Shown piece after piece: positions 45,921-54,514 of a stretch of DNA of 64,000 nt. Where the stretch lies: assembly GCA_019359745.1 (NCBI GenBank), contig JAHHGT010000004.1:124001-188000 (forward strand). Reading direction: 5' to 3'. The translations under genes were made by a program, and so were the position numbers. Every line of letters begins with the position of its first letter. Within the stretch, counting starts at the first letter, position 1. The notes beneath the pieces are model-generated. The model did not search any database and was not told the origin of the DNA. It saw nothing but the letters and a program-made list of their open reading frames with translations. This stretch comes from Aphanothece saxicola GSE-SYN-MK-01-06B (GTDB lineage: Bacteria; Cyanobacteriota; Cyanobacteriia; PCC-6307; Cyanobiaceae).

Positions 45921-47009
45921 ATGGGCAAGGGTCGGGAACTCGGTCTGCAGCTGCGCCAGTGGATCGCCACCGGTTCGGTCAGCCTGGATAACCCCCAGGC
46001 CCTGGCCAACCGGTTGATCGATGCCCTGGGGGCCGAGGAAAGCCTGCGGGGTCCCGTGCGCGATCTGGCCACCCAGCCCCTGTTGTTGCGGGTGCTGCAA
46101 TTGCAGGGTGGCCCCCAGCGCAGTGCCGTCACGGCCCTCAGCCAGCAGTTGGCCGGGATCTATGCGCCCAGGGTGCTGGCCGAGCTGCTTGACCTGCTGG
46201 AGGCCTGCTCCGGTGTGGCTCCTGTTCGGCCCGCAGGAGAAGTCATAGTCGCTGACGTTGCCATCAGCGGGCCCTGGCTGCAGAGCCTGCGGCCCCTCGG
46301 CCCCGGGCTGGCCCTGGCCGCCGCCTCGGCGCCGGTGCTGTTCTGGGCCGGCGGGGAACTCGATCAGTGGTTCTTTGATCCCTGGCGCTGGGGAAGCGGC
46401 GCGGTGCTGGTGGTGGCCCTGGCCCTGCTGCAGGCCCTGGCCCTCGGCCCGCTGCGGGCCCTGCGCCGCCGCTGGCCGTTGAGCCTTGAGGCCAGCGGTG
46501 ACCCTCGCCGCGCCTGGTGCTGGATCACGGCTCCCTGGATCCATTCCGCCAGCCGCGAGGCCCTGCTCAACCTGGTGGTGCTGGCGATCGTGCTGGGGAG
46601 CTCAACGCTGCCCCTGTCGTCCCTGCTGCTGCGCTACACCCTCACCGCCCTGGCCACCACGGCACCGGCGGTGCTGGTGGCCCGTCGGGCCCGGGTGCTG
46701 CGTCAGTGGGACGGGGCCTCTGGGCCGATCGCCGCGTTGATTGCCCTGGCTTCGGCCCTCAGCCTGCTGCACTGGAAGGCCCATCCCTTTGTGGTGGGGC
46801 CGGTGGAGATTCCCGCCTGGGTGCTGCTGGTGATCTTTGGCGCCGTCCAGCTGGGCTGGCAGTTGCCGCGCCGCGATCCCCAGGACAGCAGCAGCCCCAA
46901 GGCCCGGCTCTGGAGCAGCCCCTGGTGGTGGGGCACCGTGCTGGGAACGGCCTGGGCCCTGGTCACCCGCGCCCAGGAGCTGGGCCGGGGCCTGGGCTGG
47001 CTGGGCTGA
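45921..47009 (+). CDS. hypothetical multi-pass membrane protein
   Basis: Long ORF with several hydrophobic helices in the C-terminal two thirds. Confidence 0.75.
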   Translation: MGKGRELGLQLRQWIATGSVSLDNPQALANRLIDALGAEESLRGPVRDLATQPLLLRVLQLQGGPQRSAVTALSQQLAGIYAPRVLAELLDLLEACSGVAPVRPAGEVIVADVAISGPWLQSLRPLGPGLALAAASAPVLFWAGGELDQWFFDPWRWGSGAVLVVALALLQALALGPLRALRRRWPLSLEASGDPRRAWCWITAPWIHSASREALLNLVVLAIVLGSSTLPLSSLLLRYTLTALATTAPAVLVARRARVLRQWDGASGPIAALIALASALSLLHWKAHPFVVGPVEIPAWVLLVIFGAVQLGWQLPRRDPQDSSSPKARLWSSPWWWGTVLGTAWALVTRAQELGRGLGWLG

Positions 47010-47040: not shown

Positions 47041-49325
47041 TCAGCTCGCCAGGGCGCGCATGACCTGCCCCCACAGCTCGGCCACCAGGGCGCCGGAGGC
47101 GGCCTGGGCGGGGCGGTTGTCGTCGTTGCCCATCCAGATGCCGGTGAGGATGCGGCTGGAGGGGGAGTAGCCCACGAACAGCACATCGACGCCGTTGTCG
47201 GTGGTGCCGGTCTTGCCGCGGGCATCGGCCACCACGGCGGCGGCGCCGCCGGTGCCAGCGCTCACCACCTGCCGCAGCAGGGCATCCATTTCGGCGGCCA
47301 CCGCCGGTTCAATCAGCTGACGCGGCAGCTCGCCCACCGGGGTGGTGACGCCGCTGGGGGGGCAGTCGGCCAGGGACCGCACCGAGCCGCAGATGCCCAG
47401 GTCGTAGATGCGTTTCACACCGTGCAGGGGCACCGAGCGACCGCCGTTGGCCACCACGGCATAGGCCCCCGCCAGCTCGTAGAGGAAGGTCTCCTTGCCG
47501 CCCAGCACCATCGAGAAGCTCTCCTCCATGGGCGTGCTGATGCCCAGCTGGCGGGCCTTGGCCACCACCTTGTTGAGGCCGGCCTGCTGGGCCAGCCGCA
47601 GCGCCACCACGTTCTCGGAGCTGGCGAAGCCCGCCGCCACACTGGTGCTGCCACCCCCGCCCCGGCAGCCGGCCACGTAGGCCAGCGGGGCGCAGGAGAC
47701 GGCATCGCCGGGCTTCACGCCGGCCTCCAGGGCCGCCAGGAAGCTGAACAGCTTGAAGGTGGATCCAGGCTGACGCAGGGCCTGCACCCGGTCAAAGCTC
47801 GAGCGGCTGTAATCGCCGCCGCCGACGTAGGCCAGGATCGCCCCGGTGCCGTAGTCGATCGCGATCAGGGCGCCCTGGGTGAGCCCGGCCCGGCCCCCCG
47901 GCCCCTCCAGGAACGCCTTCAGCTGCTTCTGGGCGATGGCCTGCAGGCGGGGGTCGATGCTGCTGATCACCGCGTAATTGCCCCGGGCCTCCGCGCTGCT
48001 GAGGTCGAGGGCGAAGCGTCGACCCTCCAGCTCGCCGATCACGTAATCGCTGAAGAAGGGATAGCTGGAGTAGGTGGACGCGCCGCAGGCGGAGGGATCG
48101 ATGTTGAGCGGTCGGCGGCGGGCGTCGATCAACGCCTGGTCGGAGAGATAGCCCTCGGCGTGCATCCGCCCCAGCACCAGGTCGCGGCGCTCCCTGCCCC
48201 AGGTGGGGTTCTCCCGGTTGCAGGGGCTGTAGCTGTTGGGGCTCGGCAGCAGGCCCACCAGGAACGCCGACTCCGCCACGTCCAGGGCGCTGGCCGACTT
48301 GCGGAAATAGAGCTGGGCCGCCTGCTCGAACCCTTCCGCCCCCAGGCCCAGGTAGGCCCGGTCGAGGTACATCTTCAGGATCCGGTTCTTGCTGAATCCG
48401 GCCTCCAGCTGCCAGGCCACCCACAGCTCCCGCAGCTTGCGGGCCACCGAGACATCGGTGCCCACGGCCGGGTAGACCATGCGGGCCACCTGCTGGGCCA
48501 GGCCGCTGCCGCCACCGGTGCCCTGCACCAGGGAGCGCAGGGTGCCGAACAGATCGATGCCGCTGTTCCAGCCGAAGCGCGAATCCTCCGAGGCGATCAG
48601 GGCCTGGCGCAGGTGCAGGGGGTAGTCGGCCAGGGTCGGCAGGGCCGTCGAGGAGCCCTCGACTGCATCGATCTGGCGGCCATCGGTGGAGAACACCTTC
48701 ACCGGCCCGCTCACCGACCGGATCGAGGAGCCGCCGGAGACGGTGGTGGCCAGCAGCAGACCCCCCAGGGCCACACCCGAGCCGACGAGGGCGCCGATGG
48801 CGCCCCAGTGCACCAGTTGCCCCAGGGGACTGCGGGGATGGCGGTACACCAGGGTGGGCGCTTCCCCCTTCAGCGGTGAGCCGAGCTGCAGCTTGTCCCC
48901 GTCCCGCAGGTGGATGGCGCGGATGCGGCGATCGCGGTGGAAGAGGCCGTTGGCGGAGCCGAAATCCTCGCCGACATAGTCCCGGTCGCCGGGGCGCTCC
49001 TGCTCCACGATCGCGTGCACCCGGCTGACGCCGGTGGCGTCGGCCGGCAGTTCGCAGAGGGGATCCCGGCCGATGCGGTAGCGGCCACCCTCCAGGGCCA
49101 CACGCTGGCGGCACTGGCCGCCGATCCAGAGTTCCAGCCAGGCGCCGTGGCGGTTCAGTTCCCCCAGGGCCGTACTCACGGCCCGGCGACGGCCGCCAGC
49201 CGGAGCGGGGCTGCCAAGGGCCTGCCAGAGGCGGAGCCAACCCGTGGCGGGCGCGGGTGCGGTGGGCGGGGCGGTGCTGGGTGCGGTGCTGTCGCCAGGC
49301 GACGCCTGCTCCGTCGTCCCCACCA
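47041..49325 (-). CDS. class A penicillin-binding protein (transglycosylase/transpeptidase) with N-terminal FHA domain
   Basis: FHA-like YRIGRDPLCELPADATGVSRVHAIVEQ...FGSANGLFHRD; GT51 ALIASEDSRFGWNSGID; transpeptidase RQPGSTFKLF, SSEN, RGKTGTTDN. Confidence 0.9.
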
Positions 49326-49385
49326 TCCCCGGCCCATCTGCCTTGCTCCCATACGCTACCCGCAGCGATCGGAGCGGCCGGCCAG

Positions 49386-49670
49386 GTGGAGCAACGCCGG
49401 GATCCATGGGCACCCTTCCGCATCTGGACCGCCCTGACCATCGGGGTGTATGCCGTGCGGGCCACCTTTGCCGCCACCTGGGTGGGGGCGATCCCCGGCT
49501 GGGTGCTGCTGCTGCTGCTGCTGGTGGCCCTGGCGCTGGCGACCTCGGCCCTGCTGTTCCCCGGGCGGGTGATTCCCTGGCGGGAGGGGGAACCGATGGG
49601 CTGGTGGGGCCGGTTCCTGGCCGACCGGCGCCTGGGCCGCCGTCCCAAGGCCGGTGAGGACCCCCGATGA
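49386..49670 (+). CDS. small membrane protein
   Basis: VEQRRDPWAPFRIWTALTIGVYAVRATFAATWVGAIPGWVLLLLLLVALALA...; GTG start inferred; stop overlaps next ATG. Confidence 0.65.
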   Translation: MEQRRDPWAPFRIWTALTIGVYAVRATFAATWVGAIPGWVLLLLLLVALALATSALLFPGRVIPWREGEPMGWWGRFLADRRLGRRPKAGEDPR

Positions 49671-50398
49671 GCTCCCAGCCCCGGCTGCTGCTGCGGGCCG
49701 ATCCCGGCCGCAGCGTGCCGCTGGATCCCCGCACACCCCTCTCGATCGGCCGCGATCCGGCCAGCGGCCTCTGCCTGGGCCAGGCCCAGGGCGTCTCCCG
49801 CCACCACGCCCTGGTGCGGGTGTCGCGAACGCGGCCGGGCCAGTGGCTGCTCTGTGACCTGGGCAGCGCCAACGGCACCTATCTGGAGGGCGCCCGGCTG
49901 CGGGACTGCCGGCCCCTCTCGGACGGCGACGAGATCCGGCTGGGCCTGCAGGGGCCGGTGCTGCAGTTCCGCGCCACCGCCACCGCCACCGCCTCCACCG
50001 CCGCTGCCAGCGCCGCCGGCCGACCTGCGGCTCTGGTGGTGGACCAGCCGGCCGCCGGGCAGCTGGATTTCGCCGGCCGCTCCCTGCCCCTCGATCGGAT
50101 CCGCTCGGCCTACGTGCGCAGCCGTCGGCGCCATCCCCAGGCCTTCAGCTGGTGGCTGCTGCTCTGCCTGGGCGGCCTGCTGCTGCTTCCCTTTCCGTGG
50201 CTGTTCTGGCCCCTGCAGCTCGGGGCGCTGGCGGGCTGGATCCTGCTGGGCTCCCGCTGGGAGCATCTGCTGGAGGTGACGCTGCAGGACGGCCTGGCCT
50301 ACCGGCACCGCTTCGACAGCCTGGAGACCGCCCTGGCCCACCGCAACGGCATCCGCAAGGCGATGGGTCCGGCCCCGGCGTCGGGGAGGCGGCCATGA
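49667..50398 (+). CDS. FHA domain-containing protein with C-terminal hydrophobic region
   Basis: PLSIGRDPASGLCLGQAQGVSRHHALVRVSR...CDLGSANGTYLEGARLRDCRPLSDGDEIRLG. Confidence 0.9.
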   Translation: MSSQPRLLLRADPGRSVPLDPRTPLSIGRDPASGLCLGQAQGVSRHHALVRVSRTRPGQWLLCDLGSANGTYLEGARLRDCRPLSDGDEIRLGLQGPVLQFRATATATASTAAASAAGRPAALVVDQPAAGQLDFAGRSLPLDRIRSAYVRSRRRHPQAFSWWLLLCLGGLLLLPFPWLFWPLQLGALAGWILLGSRWEHLLEVTLQDGLAYRHRFDSLETALAHRNGIRKAMGPAPASGRRP

Positions 50399-51750
50399 GC
50401 TGGATCCTGCCGGAGGGCGCCAGCCTGGAGTTCGAGGGTCTGGCGGCTCCGCTGCGGATCATCCGGGGCCTCGGGGGTGGCACCCAGGGCCAGGTGTACG
50501 AGGTGGAACTGGAGGGGGAGCGGCTGGCCCTGAAGTGGTACCTGCCGGCCTGCATCGCCCGTGACGGGGGCCTGGAGCGGCGCCTGGTCGCCAGCATCCG
50601 CGCCACCGCCCCGAATGAGGATTTCCTCTGGCCGATCGCCCTGCTGCGGGCCAGTCCCGCCAGCCGCCCCCTGATCCGCATCCGCCAGGAGAGCTTCGGC
50701 TACCTGATGCCCCTGCGGCCGCCGGCCTACGTGGGGGCCTGTGAGCATGCCTCCGGCCGGCTGGCGATCGGCCTGCGCCAGGTGTTGCGCGCCTGCTTCG
50801 GCCTCGCCGATGCCTTCCATGCCCTGCACCTGGCGGGCCTCTGTTACAAGGATGTGTCGCTTGGCAACCTCTTCCTGGAGCCCGGCAGCGGCAGCATCCT
50901 CATCTGCGACAACGACAACGTCGCGGTGGATGGCGCCGACCATGGCGCGGTGCTCGGCACCCCGGGCTTCATGGCCCCGGAGGTGCTGCTGGGCCAGGCA
51001 CGGCCCGGCGCCGACAGCGACCTGTTTTCCCTGGCGGTGCTGCTGTTCCGGCTGCTCACCCGCCACGATCCGCTCAAGGGCCAGATGGAGCTGGCGATCC
51101 GCTGCCTTGATGAGCCGGCCCGCCGGCGCCTCTGCGGTGAGGATCCGGTGTTCATCTTCGATCCGGTCGACGACCGCAACCGACCCGACCCGATCGAGCA
51201 TGCGGCGGCCCTGATCACCTGGCCGATCTACCCCCGCCCCCTGCAGGCCCTGTTCGAGCAGACCTTCTGCCGCGGCATGAAGCAGCCCTCCCGCCGGGCC
51301 CTTACCGGCCAGTGGAAGCAGGAGCTGGCCCGCACCCTCGACCGCCGTACCCTCTGTCTTGCATGCGGCCAGGAAAACTTCCAGGCCAGCGGCGCTCCGG
51401 CGCTGTGCTGGAGCTGCGGCGCCCCCCTGCCGGAGCCCATCACGCTGCTGCTGGCCCATGGGAGCGTGGTCGCTGCCCCCGACAACGAGCTGCACGCCCA
51501 CCACTTCGATGCCCTGGCCGGGGAGGATCTGCGCCGGCCGCTGGCCCGGGTGGTGGCCCATCCCCAGGATCCGCGGCGGCTGGGGCTGCGCAATCTCCAG
51601 GCCGCTGCCTGGAGCGCCGAGACCCACGACGGCCGCTCCCAGCCGGTGCAACCTGGCGAGAGCTGTAGCCTCGCCGCACTCGCCCGGATCCAGTCCCCGG
51701 CGGGTCCGATCGCCGTGCAGCGCCCCACCCGGCCATCCCCCGCCACCTGA
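50395..51750 (+). CDS. atypical protein kinase with C-terminal zinc ribbon (TerY-P triad kinase-like)
   Basis: LALKWYLPA, YKDVSLGNLF, ICDNDNVAVDG (DND at the DFG position), GTPGFMAPEVLLGQARPGADSDLFSLAVLLFRLL; CxxC...CxxC. Confidence 0.85.
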   Translation: MSWILPEGASLEFEGLAAPLRIIRGLGGGTQGQVYEVELEGERLALKWYLPACIARDGGLERRLVASIRATAPNEDFLWPIALLRASPASRPLIRIRQESFGYLMPLRPPAYVGACEHASGRLAIGLRQVLRACFGLADAFHALHLAGLCYKDVSLGNLFLEPGSGSILICDNDNVAVDGADHGAVLGTPGFMAPEVLLGQARPGADSDLFSLAVLLFRLLTRHDPLKGQMELAIRCLDEPARRRLCGEDPVFIFDPVDDRNRPDPIEHAAALITWPIYPRPLQALFEQTFCRGMKQPSRRALTGQWKQELARTLDRRTLCLACGQENFQASGAPALCWSCGAPLPEPITLLLAHGSVVAAPDNELHAHHFDALAGEDLRRPLARVVAHPQDPRRLGLRNLQAAAWSAETHDGRSQPVQPGESCSLAALARIQSPAGPIAVQRPTRPSPAT

Positions 51751-51753
51751 GAG

Positions 51754-52491
51754 ATGCCGTTCCCCGACGTCAAGCTGGCCAACCGGCCGCTCCATTTCCT
51801 CTACCTCTGCGACTGCTCCGGCTCGATGGCGGCGTCGGGCAAGATGCAGGCCCTCAACCAGGCCATCCGCCAGTCGCTGCCGGGCATGGCGGCGGTGGCC
51901 CGGGACAACCCGGAGGCGCGGGTGCTGGTGCGGGCCGTGCGCTTCGCCGACCATGCCGCCTGGCACATCGAGACCCCCACGCCGGTGGATCAGCTGGAAT
52001 GGCGCGATCTCCAGGCCGGCGGCATCACGGCCATGGGGGAGGCCCTGAAGCTGGTGGCGGCGGCCCTGCAGACCCCGCCGATGGAGGTGCGCGCCCTGCC
52101 GCCGGTGCTGGTGCTGATCTCCGACGGCCAGCCCACCGATGATTTCGCCGCCGGCCTCGAGGCCCTGCTGCGGGTGCCCTGGGCCCAGAAGGCGGTGCGC
52201 CTGGCCATCGCCCTGGGCCACGACGCCGACCTGGAGGTGCTGCAGCGGTTCATCGGCATCGAACCGGCCACGGCGGGCCGCTCGCCCCGTCGCCCCCTGC
52301 AGGCCAGCAACGCCACGTCCCTGGCCCAGTACATCCAGTGGGCCTCCACGGCGGTGGTGGGGGCCGCCTCGATGCCGGCGAGCCGGGTGAGTGAGACGCC
52401 CCTCGAGCCTGCGGCGGGCAACATCCCCCTGCCGGATCTGCCCCCCACCGTGCTGGATCCCACCGACGATGTCGGTCCCCTGGTGTGGTGA
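51754..52491 (+). CDS. VWA domain protein, TerY-like
   Basis: MIDAS-type LYLCDCSGSMAASGKMQALNQAI, PVLVLISDGQPTDDF. Confidence 0.87.
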   Translation: MPFPDVKLANRPLHFLYLCDCSGSMAASGKMQALNQAIRQSLPGMAAVARDNPEARVLVRAVRFADHAAWHIETPTPVDQLEWRDLQAGGITAMGEALKLVAAALQTPPMEVRALPPVLVLISDGQPTDDFAAGLEALLRVPWAQKAVRLAIALGHDADLEVLQRFIGIEPATAGRSPRRPLQASNATSLAQYIQWASTAVVGAASMPASRVSETPLEPAAGNIPLPDLPPTVLDPTDDVGPLVW

Positions 52492-53846
52492 ACCGCTGGG
52501 CGGCGCCGATCGCTGCCAGCCGGGCCGGGGCCGCCCACCTCAGGACCGGCCGCCCCTGCCAGGACGCCGTGCTCTGCGGTGAGCTGCGCGACGCCGAAGG
52601 CCAGCCCGTGATGCTGATGGCGGTGGCCGACGGCCACGGCGGGCTCCGCTACCGCCGCAGCGAGGTGGGCAGTCGCCTGGCCTGCGAGACGGCCCTGGCC
52701 GTGGTGGGGGACGCCCTGGCCGCCGCGCCCCCGGGGGACGGGGAGGGGGGCTGGAGCCGCTGGCTGGCCCACGACCTGCCCGAGGCGGTCCAGCGCCGCT
52801 GGCTGGAGGCGGTGCAGGCCCACTGGCAGAGGGATCCCGGCGAGGGCGACTTCGAGTCCCTGCTCTATGGCAGCACCCTCGGGCTGGTGGTGATGACGAC
52901 CCACTGGTGGGGCCATACGGGCCTGGGCGACTGGGACCTGGTGCGGGTGGAAGCGGACGGCCGTGCCCGGCTGCTGCAGGAGGAGAACGAACCCACGGCT
53001 CTCGGCGAGGCCACCTGCAGCCTCTGCCAGCCCCAGGCGGCGTCCCTGTTCGCGCGCCGGGCGGCCCTGCATCCCCTGGCGCCTGAGGCGCATGCGTTCG
53101 CCCTGGTGCTCTGCACCGATGGCATCCGTAAATCCTGTGCCACTGACGCGGACTTTCTCACCCTGACGGCCTGGCTGGCTCGCAGCGGCGCCGAGGCGGC
53201 AGGAGACCTGTCGGAGGCGCTGGATCGGATCAGCCGCGAAGGCAGCGGCGACGATGTGACCGTGGCGATCGGCCGCAGCGGGGCGCCCGGCGAGCCGCCG
53301 GCGCCGCTGCCCGCGCCTCCGGCGGTGGCGGAAACCCCTGCCGTGACGCCATCCCCTGCCCAGGCCGCCCAGGCTTCCCATCCCCGAAGGCGGCGCCCGG
53401 CGATCGGCCGGGCGGTGGCCATCGGCCTGGCCCTGGCCGCCGCCGGTGCGGGCTGGCTGGCCCTGATCTGGCCCCGAACCCAGCCCCCGCCGCAGGCGGC
53501 GCCCACCTCCCCCGGGCTGCGGGCCGCCCTGGCCGAGGTGGAGCGCCTCTGCGCCCAGCCGGCCAGCCTTCCCCTGGAGTTGCGCCGCCGGCGCGAGCTG
53601 TTCGTCGCCCTGCGCCAGGGCCGGCAGGATCCAGGCCAACTGAAAGCCGCAGCCGCCACGGATCCCCTGGCCGCCCTGATCGCGGCGGATCTGCCTGCTG
53701 CCGATCCAACGGTGGAAAAGCCTGCTGGGGCCAAACCGCCACCGGCCAATCCCCGCCGCAACCTGCAGGCCCTCGGTGCCTGCCCAGCCCTGCTGGAGGC
53801 CCTCAGCCAGCAGTGGGCCCTGTCCCCGGCTCCCACCACCCCCTGA
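52485..53846 (+). CDS. PP2C family serine/threonine phosphatase with C-terminal TM segment and tail
   Basis: CQDAVLCGEL, AVADGHGGLRYRRSEVGSRLA, CTDGI; TM AVAIGLALAAAGAGWLALIW; GTG start inferred. Confidence 0.87.
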   Translation: MVNRWAAPIAASRAGAAHLRTGRPCQDAVLCGELRDAEGQPVMLMAVADGHGGLRYRRSEVGSRLACETALAVVGDALAAAPPGDGEGGWSRWLAHDLPEAVQRRWLEAVQAHWQRDPGEGDFESLLYGSTLGLVVMTTHWWGHTGLGDWDLVRVEADGRARLLQEENEPTALGEATCSLCQPQAASLFARRAALHPLAPEAHAFALVLCTDGIRKSCATDADFLTLTAWLARSGAEAAGDLSEALDRISREGSGDDVTVAIGRSGAPGEPPAPLPAPPAVAETPAVTPSPAQAAQASHPRRRRPAIGRAVAIGLALAAAGAGWLALIWPRTQPPPQAAPTSPGLRAALAEVERLCAQPASLPLELRRRRELFVALRQGRQDPGQLKAAAATDPLAALIAADLPAADPTVEKPAGAKPPPANPRRNLQALGACPALLEALSQQWALSPAPTTP

Positions 53847-53851
53847 CCACC

Positions 53852-54514
53852 ATGGCCCTGCGTCTGCTGCTCGATAGCGCCGATCCCCTGGAGTGGGAGC
53901 GCTGGCTGCCCAGCGGCCTGTTCCAGGGCGTCACCACCAACCCCACCCTGCTGCGGCGGGCCGGCCAGCCCTGCAACCTCGACCACCTGGGGCGGCTGGC
54001 GGAGCGCGCCGCGACCCTGGGCTGCCGCGAGCTGCATCTGCAGACCTGGGGCGCCGATGGCGAGCAGCAGCTGGCCACCGGCCGGGCCCTGGCAGCCCTC
54101 GATCCCCAGCGGGTTCTGGTGAAGGTGCCGATCACCCAGGGAGGGGCCGAGGTGGCACGCCAGCTGATCGCCGAAGGGGTGCCCGTCACGTTCACCGCCT
54201 GCTACGAGGTGGCCCAGGTGCTGGTGGCCGCCGCCCTCGGGGCCGACGGCATCGCCGCCTACCTGGGTCGCATCGGCGATCTGGGTCGCGACGGCCACGG
54301 CGAGCTGATCGCCATGCAGCGCGCTCTCGACGGGGTGGGCTCCAGCACCCGCCTGCTGGTGGCCAGCCTGCGCCAGCCGGGGGATCTGGCCCGCCTGGCG
54401 GCGGCCGGTCTGGCCCACCACACGATCAGTCCGGCCATTGCCGAAGCCCTGTTCGCCAGCCCGGACACCGCCGCGGCTGCCGAACAGTTCGAACGGGATT
54501 CCCAAGGCGGCTGA
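53852..54514 (+). CDS. transaldolase family protein (FSA-like)
   Basis: LLLDSADPLEWERWLPSGLFQGVTTNPTLL, VLVKVPITQGG, VTFTACYEVAQ. Confidence 0.9.
   Translation: MALRLLLDSADPLEWERWLPSGLFQGVTTNPTLLRRAGQPCNLDHLGRLAERAATLGCRELHLQTWGADGEQQLATGRALAALDPQRVLVKVPITQGGAEVARQLIAEGVPVTFTACYEVAQVLVAAALGADGIAAYLGRIGDLGRDGHGELIAMQRALDGVGSSTRLLVASLRQPGDLARLAAAGLAHHTISPAIAEALFASPDTAAAAEQFERDSQGG

Follow-up and report, generated by a model that had tools for sequence, protein, structure and literature searches.

A TerY-P-like kinase, VWA and phosphatase module beside an FHA-domain penicillin-binding protein in picocyanobacteria: a candidate control of wall synthesis

Known phospho-signalling systems and the layout of the locus

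TerY-P triads are defined by a TerY-like VWA protein, a PP2C phosphatase and a kinase with a C-terminal zinc ribbon (PMC11090510); Ter-protein or nucleic-acid-processing neighbours are their usual, not strictly defining, context. Clustered VWA, PP2C and kinase genes are also found in E. coli (yegL-pphC(yegK)-yegI). In Actinobacteria, the Ser/Thr kinases PknA and PknB, the PP2C PstP and the FHA proteins FhaA and FhaB are tied to peptidoglycan synthesis (PBP, MviN), and PknA/PknB control the wall through docking of phosphothreonine (pThr) on FHA domains (in part PMC11898655, PMC6554272). In pneumococcus, StkP phosphorylates MacP, a small transmembrane (TM) protein which activates the class A penicillin-binding protein (PBP) PBP2a (PMC10746261), and the T6SS protein Fha binds a pThr of TssL (PMC3953482). 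A literature search, with subscription journals mostly outside its scope, returned no paper on cyanobacterial FHA-PBPs or on the module described below.

In the window, i.e. the whole 64-kb stretch of Aphanothece saxicola DNA analysed, every gene described by an earlier sequence-only reading was recovered in place. The five same-strand genes, overlapping or a few bp apart, were verified at 49386-53846 on the plus strand. They encode a small single-TM protein of 94 aa (49386..49670, GTG start, alignment evidence, TM residues 40-58), an FHA-TM protein of 243 aa (49667..50398, Pfam FHA 61.3 bits, E-value 1e-16), a Ser/Thr protein kinase of 451 aa with a zinc ribbon and a C-terminal all-beta domain (50395..51750, Pkinase 7e-13), a TerY-like VWA protein of 245 aa with a complete MIDAS (51754..52491), and a PP2C phosphatase of 453 aa with a TM segment (residues 310-328) and a two-Cys C-terminal tail (52485..53846, PP2C_2 84.6 bits, 9e-24). 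The FHA-TM gene shares 4-bp ATGA overlaps with the small TM gene before it and the kinase gene after it; kinase and VWA genes are 3 bp apart, and VWA and PP2C genes overlap by 7 bp. The adjacency of the triad genes (spacing −7 to +3 bp) is maintained in orthologous loci, and an operon is predicted from the spacing. The divergent FHA-domain class A PBP, announced at about 60 bp, lies 59 bp away, and a promoter and terminator scan of this gap found neither. This protein, PBP-alpha (47041..49326, minus strand, ATG start, 761 aa), consists by Pfam of a cytosolic FHA domain (residues 83-149, 48880..49080, minus strand, 41.9 bits, 1e-10), a TM segment (residues 175-193, 48748..48804, minus strand, hydropathy 1.89), a transglycosylase domain (1e-43) and a transpeptidase domain (1e-23), the TM being predicted to divide the cytosol-side FHA from the periplasm-side enzyme domains. 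Convergent with PBP-alpha is a gene for a rhomboid-like membrane protein (45921..47009, plus strand, Pfam Rhomboid 27.8 bits for a cut-off of 22.6). At the other end, a transaldolase gene (53855-54514) lies 8 bp downstream; it was rejected as a module member, being located elsewhere in other genomes.

The assignment of kinase, VWA and PP2C to a TerY-P-like triad, made in the sequence-only reading, was borne out by profile-profile comparison with VWA-PP2C-kinase triads of other cyanobacteria (E-values of 1e-26 for kinase plus zinc ribbon, 7e-27 for VWA and 6e-9 for PP2C); by Pfam, the VWA protein matches VWA_2 barely above cut-off (5e-6). All three components are present, adjacent, homologous and of the same architecture. 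The differences concern gene order (kinase-VWA-PP2C versus VWA-PP2C-kinase), the PP2C, which is here membrane-anchored with an extra tail, and the partners, namely FHA-PBP, FHA-TM, small TM and rhomboid-like proteins in place of Ter proteins, helicases and nucleases. The compared triads adjoin a large helicase-like gene, whereas gene calls and Pfam revealed no helicase or nuclease at our locus; TerD was not found in the genome, and PADLOC gave weak matches only (TerY 15 bits; general kinases). The E. coli locus has PP2C_2 in common with the window and no PBP or FHA gene; YegI is 26% identical to the window kinase, with some zinc-ribbon cysteines aligned, but extends at its C-terminus into a long region with an HHH motif, which is absent from the window kinase. 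The actinobacterial system resembles the locus in its Ser/Thr kinase, PP2C and FHA proteins; the window kinase is however of another family (no PASTA, soluble, zinc ribbon, associated with VWA), its FHA domain is fused to the synthase itself, and pThr-FHA docking is here a proposal. Kinase, small TM protein and class A PBP recall the StkP-MacP-PBP2a trio, an analogy resting, for MacP and the window small protein, on similar size and a single TM. We know of no FHA domain in PBP2a.

Conservation of the synthase and of its neighbours

PBP-alpha has both enzyme domains and the catalytic motifs of a class A PBP: SxxK (S522/K525) and SxN (S570/N572) are invariant in 38 orthologues, and KTG (K705-G707) is kept in 37 of the 38, the last having a gap. 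In its FHA domain, G86, R87, S101, R102, H104, N126 and G127 are invariant (38/38), so that the Arg of GR, the Ser of SxxH and the Asn of NG that make the pThr pocket are present throughout; the N-terminus ahead of the FHA is highly variable. The genome contains three FHA domains in all, those of PBP-alpha, of the operon FHA-TM protein and of a second FHA-PBP, PBP-beta (contig 11:557394-559682). PBP-beta has the same FHA-TM-GT-TP architecture and an intact FHA, but is only 43% identical to PBP-alpha, near-universal in the sampled class and unlinked to a triad. As nearly all cyanobacteria have such a second FHA-PBP, the fusion of an FHA domain to a PBP is no peculiarity of the triad, and because PBP-beta keeps its FHA intact without one, FHA function on a PBP appears independent of the triad kinase. 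In one complete genome (G049), PBP-alpha is the sole FHA-PBP, and therefore can replace its near-universal paralogue. PBP-beta and the rhomboid-like gene had both been omitted from the sequence-only reading.

The operon FHA-TM protein is modelled by AlphaFold (pLDDT 84) as an FHA domain joined by a flexible linker to beta strands and a helical hairpin, followed by a beta-beta-alpha element. Its pThr pocket (Arg, Ser, Asn) is intact in the window, kept in 20 of 38 orthologues and degenerate in the other 18. Since the pocket of PBP-alpha is kept in 38 of 38, the PBP FHA is the likelier pThr reader. The earlier proposal that a pThr partner docks on one or both FHA domains is thus best narrowed mainly to that of the PBP, which has the pThr-binding residues whose lack would have spoken against the proposal.

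In the kinase, whose fold was confirmed by Foldseek, K47, D153 (YKD), N158 and D172 (DND) are invariant in 41 sequences, as are the four cysteines C321, C324, C338 and C341 of the zinc ribbon (51355..51417, plus strand), which aligns with the TerY-P kinase ribbon. At strict E-value, a phylum-wide search confined this kinase to the Cyanobiaceae family. The all-beta domain at its C-terminus (residues 350-442, modelled for the most part at pLDDT 84-94) was tried as a further FHA and rejected, to the extent that shallow alignments permit: the probability was 0.2-0.7% against both FHA sets, no better than for the VWA or PP2C controls. In the VWA protein, a profile match to TerY-P VWA proteins, the MIDAS residues D20, S22, S24, T92 and D124 are invariant in 40 sequences. 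After a variable linker it ends in a conserved tail, NIPLPDLPPTVLDPTDDVGPLVW (52417..52488, plus strand), in which PLPxLPPT and T232, the candidate pThr, are invariant (40/40); a D at +3 of T232 is found in 36 of 40 and missing in 4. This tail is a candidate FHA ligand. It is just as conserved in Prochlorococcus MIT 0701 (L107), a genome that lacks PBP-alpha, which means that something other than the PBP FHA could read it.

The PP2C keeps its metal-binding Asp residues, with D49 and G50 invariant in 39 sequences, and D212 and D257 in 38 (one gap). Its TM and two-Cys tail typify PBP-linked loci and are missing from the Prochlorococcus triads without PBP: of the 34 PBP-linked loci that could be assessed, 32 have the tail, and neither of the two Prochlorococcus triads does. 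One locus (L084) is an exception, with a PBP and a PP2C devoid of TM and tail. The small TM protein, without Pfam or NCBIfam match, has a conserved N-terminus (RDPWxPFRxW) and a nearly invariant T18 in the alignment. The rhomboid-like protein begins with a helical domain of ~100 aa (about 45921-46235) homologous to proteins adjoining relocated modules; inspection by eye showed a GASG motif and not the usual C-terminal His.

Joint inheritance of PBP-alpha and the triad

Within the genus, the VWA gene is present in 31 of 42 genomes and PBP-alpha in the same 31 plus one (G036), rejected as a PBP-only genome because its contig terminates within the kinase gene. In the family sample, VWA accompanies PBP-alpha in 23 of 23 genomes. 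Among 42 genus and 151 family genomes, PBP-alpha was thus never found without the triad. The module is patchily distributed, having been gained or lost at least 7 to 9 times, and on the PBP-beta gene tree of 40 genomes, which is not a species tree, PBP-alpha and the triad were concordant in 7 of 7 independent transitions (p 0.016). We conclude that PBP-alpha occurs only with the triad, and that, as read from the genomes, the two were jointly gained or lost at least seven times. Their linkage is well supported by these comparisons, contrary to the outcome, lack of co-occurrence, that would have spoken against the sequence-only reading. That reading had also asked whether the FHA-PBP adjoins the triad across cyanobacteria: it does within one picocyanobacterial family, to which the co-occurrence is restricted, and not beyond, and the triad also occurs without PBP-alpha in Prochlorococcus (L107, L155).

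Another 36 loci from the genus and family have the same gene order and strands, including six where both flanks differ (L064, L065, L071, L073, L084, L091), so the arrangement is not due to chance. Synechococcus sp. WH 5701 is among the strains with the locus. Most genomes carry the block at a single position flanked by the atp genes and pepP, and common descent at this position accounts for part of the synteny; relocated blocks retain exactly PBP to PP2C. The rhomboid-like gene shows the module's pattern of presence and absence in the 42 genus genomes, including unlinked cases such as G007, where it lies 1.2 Mb away. It is probably a seventh component, belonging to the same unit of gain and loss.

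A proposed switch and its alternatives

We lean, at slightly better than even confidence, towards a membrane-associated TerY-P-type phospho-signalling module with the neighbouring PBP-alpha as its dedicated client. The kinase would phosphorylate a threonine on a module protein, T232 of the VWA tail being the leading candidate; the phospho-tail would dock on the PBP-alpha FHA, and docking, relayed by the lone TM helix of the synthase, would recruit or alter this enzyme. The PP2C in the membrane would take the phosphate off; its two-Cys tail, which is predicted to be periplasmic, may sense a signal from the envelope. Small TM, FHA-TM (often unable to bind pThr) and rhomboid-like proteins could act as membrane scaffold or co-regulators. 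Against this reading count the tail conserved in L107, the four tails lacking the +3 D, the L084 exception and the intact FHA of the triad-free PBP-beta. The full version, in which the switch directly controls a bifunctional peptidoglycan synthase through the phosphorylated VWA tail on its built-in FHA, with the transmembrane PP2C as envelope sensor, is put forward tentatively, at clearly less than even confidence.

The coupling may also be real with another ligand: the kinase would phosphorylate itself, the small TM protein or the linker at the PBP N-terminus, the FHA would bind that site, and the VWA tail would serve only to dock the kinase or PP2C. The conserved tail of L107, where no FHA-PBP exists, the MacP precedent, in which a small TM protein is what the kinase phosphorylates (PMC10746261), and the strongly conserved N-terminus of the small protein with its T18 are consistent with this. 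Against it, the PBP N-terminus ahead of the FHA is highly variable, and in a non-exhaustive survey the tail Thr was the sole invariant Thr found in a short conserved motif after a variable linker; we consider this reading rather unlikely. It is improbable, in our estimate, that the module serves envelope stress or anti-phage defence as an accessory for which wall synthesis or the PBP would be a sensor or effector and not a means of routine growth control. TerY-P triads do occur in restriction-type systems, and TerY-P-like modules as stand-alone defence (PMC11090510), and the patchy distribution and the helicase-like neighbours of the cyanobacterial relatives also speak for this reading; yet the intact GT and TP motifs of PBP-alpha and its place as sole FHA-PBP in G049 suggest routine wall synthesis, and both the weak PADLOC matches and the locus free of nuclease and helicase genes argue the same way. 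Finally, PBP-alpha and triad might be functionally unconnected and simply travel together on a block that is mobile or inherited, as the single atp-pepP site of most genomes would allow. The strict dependence of PBP-alpha on the triad, the exact limits of relocated blocks, the rhomboid-like gene that tracks the module even when unlinked and the seven concordant transitions make this very improbable.

Returning to PBP-alpha as client of the module, the locus joins the question of TerY-P targets to that of the role of cyanobacterial PBP FHA domains, through strict co-inheritance, and names one candidate phosphosite and one candidate reader domain. If true, this would be the first physiological TerY-P client beyond tellurite systems and those of nucleic-acid conflict, and the first PBP acting as an FHA reader. 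It would also provide a cytoplasmic kinase route to cyanobacterial class A PBPs, following a logic like that of StkP-MacP and PknB-FhaA with other parts. The gain and loss of this module together with an FHA-bearing wall synthase suggests that some small freshwater and coastal cyanobacteria may possess a dedicated, previously undescribed on/off control of wall synthesis.

Gene layout and relation to TerY-P

All the module genes lie where the sequence-only reading had placed them. PBP-alpha, a class A penicillin-binding protein (47041-49326, minus strand; Pfam FHA, Transgly and Transpeptidase), is divergent, across a 59 bp gap, from five plus-strand genes. These encode a small transmembrane (TM) protein (49386-49670), an FHA protein (49667-50398; Pfam FHA), a kinase with a zinc ribbon (50395-51750; Pkinase), a VWA protein (51754-52491; VWA) and a PP2C phosphatase (52485-53846; PP2C_2), and are joined by two 4-bp ATGA overlaps, one 3-bp gap and one 7-bp overlap. 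A transaldolase/fructose-6-phosphate aldolase-like gene (53855-54514) begins 8 bp past PP2C; because it is located elsewhere in other genomes, it is probably only co-transcribed with the module, in the source clade.

Three proteins define TerY-P: a TerY-like VWA protein, a PP2C, and a Ser/Thr kinase that carries a fused zinc ribbon (PMC11090510). The same paper describes it in tellurite, restriction and defence contexts. The assignment of the window kinase, VWA and PP2C to this class held. In two loci of other cyanobacteria, L172 and L173, VWA-PP2C-kinase precedes a gene for a large helicase-like protein (translation read by eye), and profiles of the window families matched their triads, with E values of 1e-26 for the kinase through its zinc ribbon, 7e-27 for VWA and 6e-9 for PP2C (E. 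coli PphC included). Since all three components match, the triad qualifies as TerY-P in the parts that define this class; its gene order, membrane anchoring and partners differ.

All three triad proteins and PBP-alpha are expected to be active. In 41 kinase sequences there is no variation at K47, D153 (YKD motif), N158, D172 (DND motif) or the four cysteines of the zinc ribbon, the VWA MIDAS is complete in 40/40, and PP2C keeps D49 in 39/39, with D212 and D257 in 38 and one gap. For PBP-alpha, SxxK and SxN are found in 38/38, and KTG in 37 with one gap. The kinase structure model (overall pLDDT 65) is of low quality over the kinase domain and still matches kinases; past the zinc ribbon, residues 350-442 form a confident all-beta domain, for which no match to FHA or any Pfam family was found. 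PP2C has one TM and a two-Cys tail (LCxxP, CPxL) in 32 of the 34 assessable PBP-linked loci, the TM falling under a simple hydropathy threshold in some of the 32, with the tail present. Of the other two, L084 has no tail and L075 has a disturbed reading frame. This tail, predicted to be periplasmic, fits an envelope function, as it is found in PBP-linked loci and missing from the PP2C of both PBP-less Prochlorococcus triads (286-294 residues, no TM).

Distribution of PBP-alpha and the triad

VWA was detected in 31 of the 42 genus genomes and PBP-alpha in the identical 31; in G036, where PBP-alpha is present, the contig ends within the kinase gene. Among 151 genomes sampled from the family, VWA was present in 23/23 genomes with PBP-alpha, and in two further ones without it, Prochlorococcus MIT 0701 and AG-412-I05. 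PBP-alpha thus travels with the triad, but the triad is not obligatorily bound to the PBP. In 36 loci, examined wholly or partly, the genes follow the order PBP(-), small, FHA, kinase, VWA, PP2C. Six of these (L064, L065, L071, L073, L084 and L091) have both flanks unlike the window, and therefore the block has relocated as a unit. A PBP-beta tree covers 40 genomes, of which 20 carry the module and 20 lack it. The module requires nine changes on this tree, at least seven on well-supported branches, and PBP-alpha and triad are concordant in 7/7 independent pairs (p 0.016 by sign test); a species tree would be preferable to such a gene tree.

Conservation of the neighbourhood is real, but confined to picocyanobacteria within a single family. 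When one genome per species was scanned, the 58 VWA relatives were all or nearly all from picocyanobacteria, including Cyanobium, Vulcanococcus, Synechococcus WH 5701 and Prochlorococcus; a few records under other names (among them Microcystis elabens FACHB-917 and one bin titled Bifidobacterium) are presumably misnamed. Among 386 phylum genomes, the module kinase was not found outside the family at E 1e-30.

A seventh gene, rhomboid-like (45921-47009, convergent with PBP-alpha), matches the module in presence and absence. It accompanies the module in genus genomes and is found in 0/10 of those without it; the sole gap among the module genomes of the genus is G012, on a 6.6-kb contig. It can be unlinked, 1.2 Mb away in G007 and on another contig in G022, G026, G027 and G039. 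In a tree-aware test, 5/7 pairs were concordant and none discordant (p 0.06). Its helical N-terminal domain (~100 residues) recurs in module neighbours at L084 (E 4e-8), L091 (2e-5) and the Prochlorococcus MIT 0701 locus L107 (3e-4), the gene proper being absent from these three genomes. The Prochlorococcus triad neighbourhood (L107:1244-15200) and that of a relocated module (L084:1936-14702) both contain trypsin-like proteases, of which one pair shares 59% identity, as well as TPR proteins and COP23-like proteins; a wider envelope-protein set may accompany the triad.

PBP-alpha, its paralogue and the likely phosphothreonine reader

The sequence-only reading had singled out the FHA-bearing class A PBP beside the triad. 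The FHA domain is indeed there, but such a fusion is nothing special: almost every genome sampled from the class has PBP-beta, including its FHA region, without the triad. In the source genome (3.25 Mb, 11 contigs) there are only three FHA domains, two in the module and one on contig 11, in PBP-beta. PBP-alpha is a lineage-specific paralogue, 43% identical to PBP-beta, and it accompanies the triad. In the complete genome G049, neither search finds PBP-beta, which leaves PBP-alpha as the sole FHA-PBP, and one search gave the same pattern in G130, G152 and G185. This apparent loss of PBP-beta where PBP-alpha is present suggests that PBP-alpha replaces it in these four genomes.

Docking had been proposed on one or both FHA domains of the module. 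The pThr-binding residues of PBP-alpha (R87, S101 and N126, together with G86, R102, H104 and G127) are invariant in 38/38, whereas the operon FHA protein retains all three key residues in only 20/38 orthologues, with R replaced by K or C, S by A, and N by D, Q or T. From this difference, PBP-alpha is more likely to be the pThr reader, and the operon FHA protein would often have become something else. In the model of the latter (pLDDT 84), an FHA domain and a flexible linker are followed by beta strands that flank a membrane hairpin; its best Foldseek matches are FHA domains.

A candidate ligand is found at the VWA C-terminus, where a variable linker is followed by the tail NIPLPDLPPTxLDPxDxVGPxVW. 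P-L-P, L-P-P-T and the final W are invariant in 40/40, and 36/40 carry Asp at position +3 relative to T232, the other 4 having it deleted. The tail is likely disordered, and an invariant Thr followed by Asp at +3 in such a tail is a classic form of FHA ligand, as established for Rad53 FHA1. We regard T232 as the leading candidate pThr ligand, not as a result. The tail is also retained in Prochlorococcus, which is without PBP-alpha; there, a double-FHA ABC transporter (L107:3347-5704), encoded ~5 kb from the kinase in a genome without FHA-PBP, might be an alternative reader.

Proposed coupling to peptidoglycan synthesis

The literature search found no published account of the PBP-triad module, and its logic has precedents in StkP-MacP-PBP2a (PMC10746261), PpkA-TssL-Fha (PMC3953482) and mycobacterial FhaA (PMC11898655). 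In the mechanism we propose, the kinase would phosphorylate a Thr on a module protein, T232 of the VWA tail being the first choice, and the phosphorylated protein would dock onto the PBP-alpha FHA domain. Docking would switch or position the PBP-alpha synthase via its TM, and PP2C, which may sense the envelope, would reset the switch. That T232 is the phosphorylated site is a tentative proposal, rather doubtful at present; FHA-pThr docking as the mode of coupling is slightly favoured; and it is very probable that PBP-alpha is coupled to the triad.
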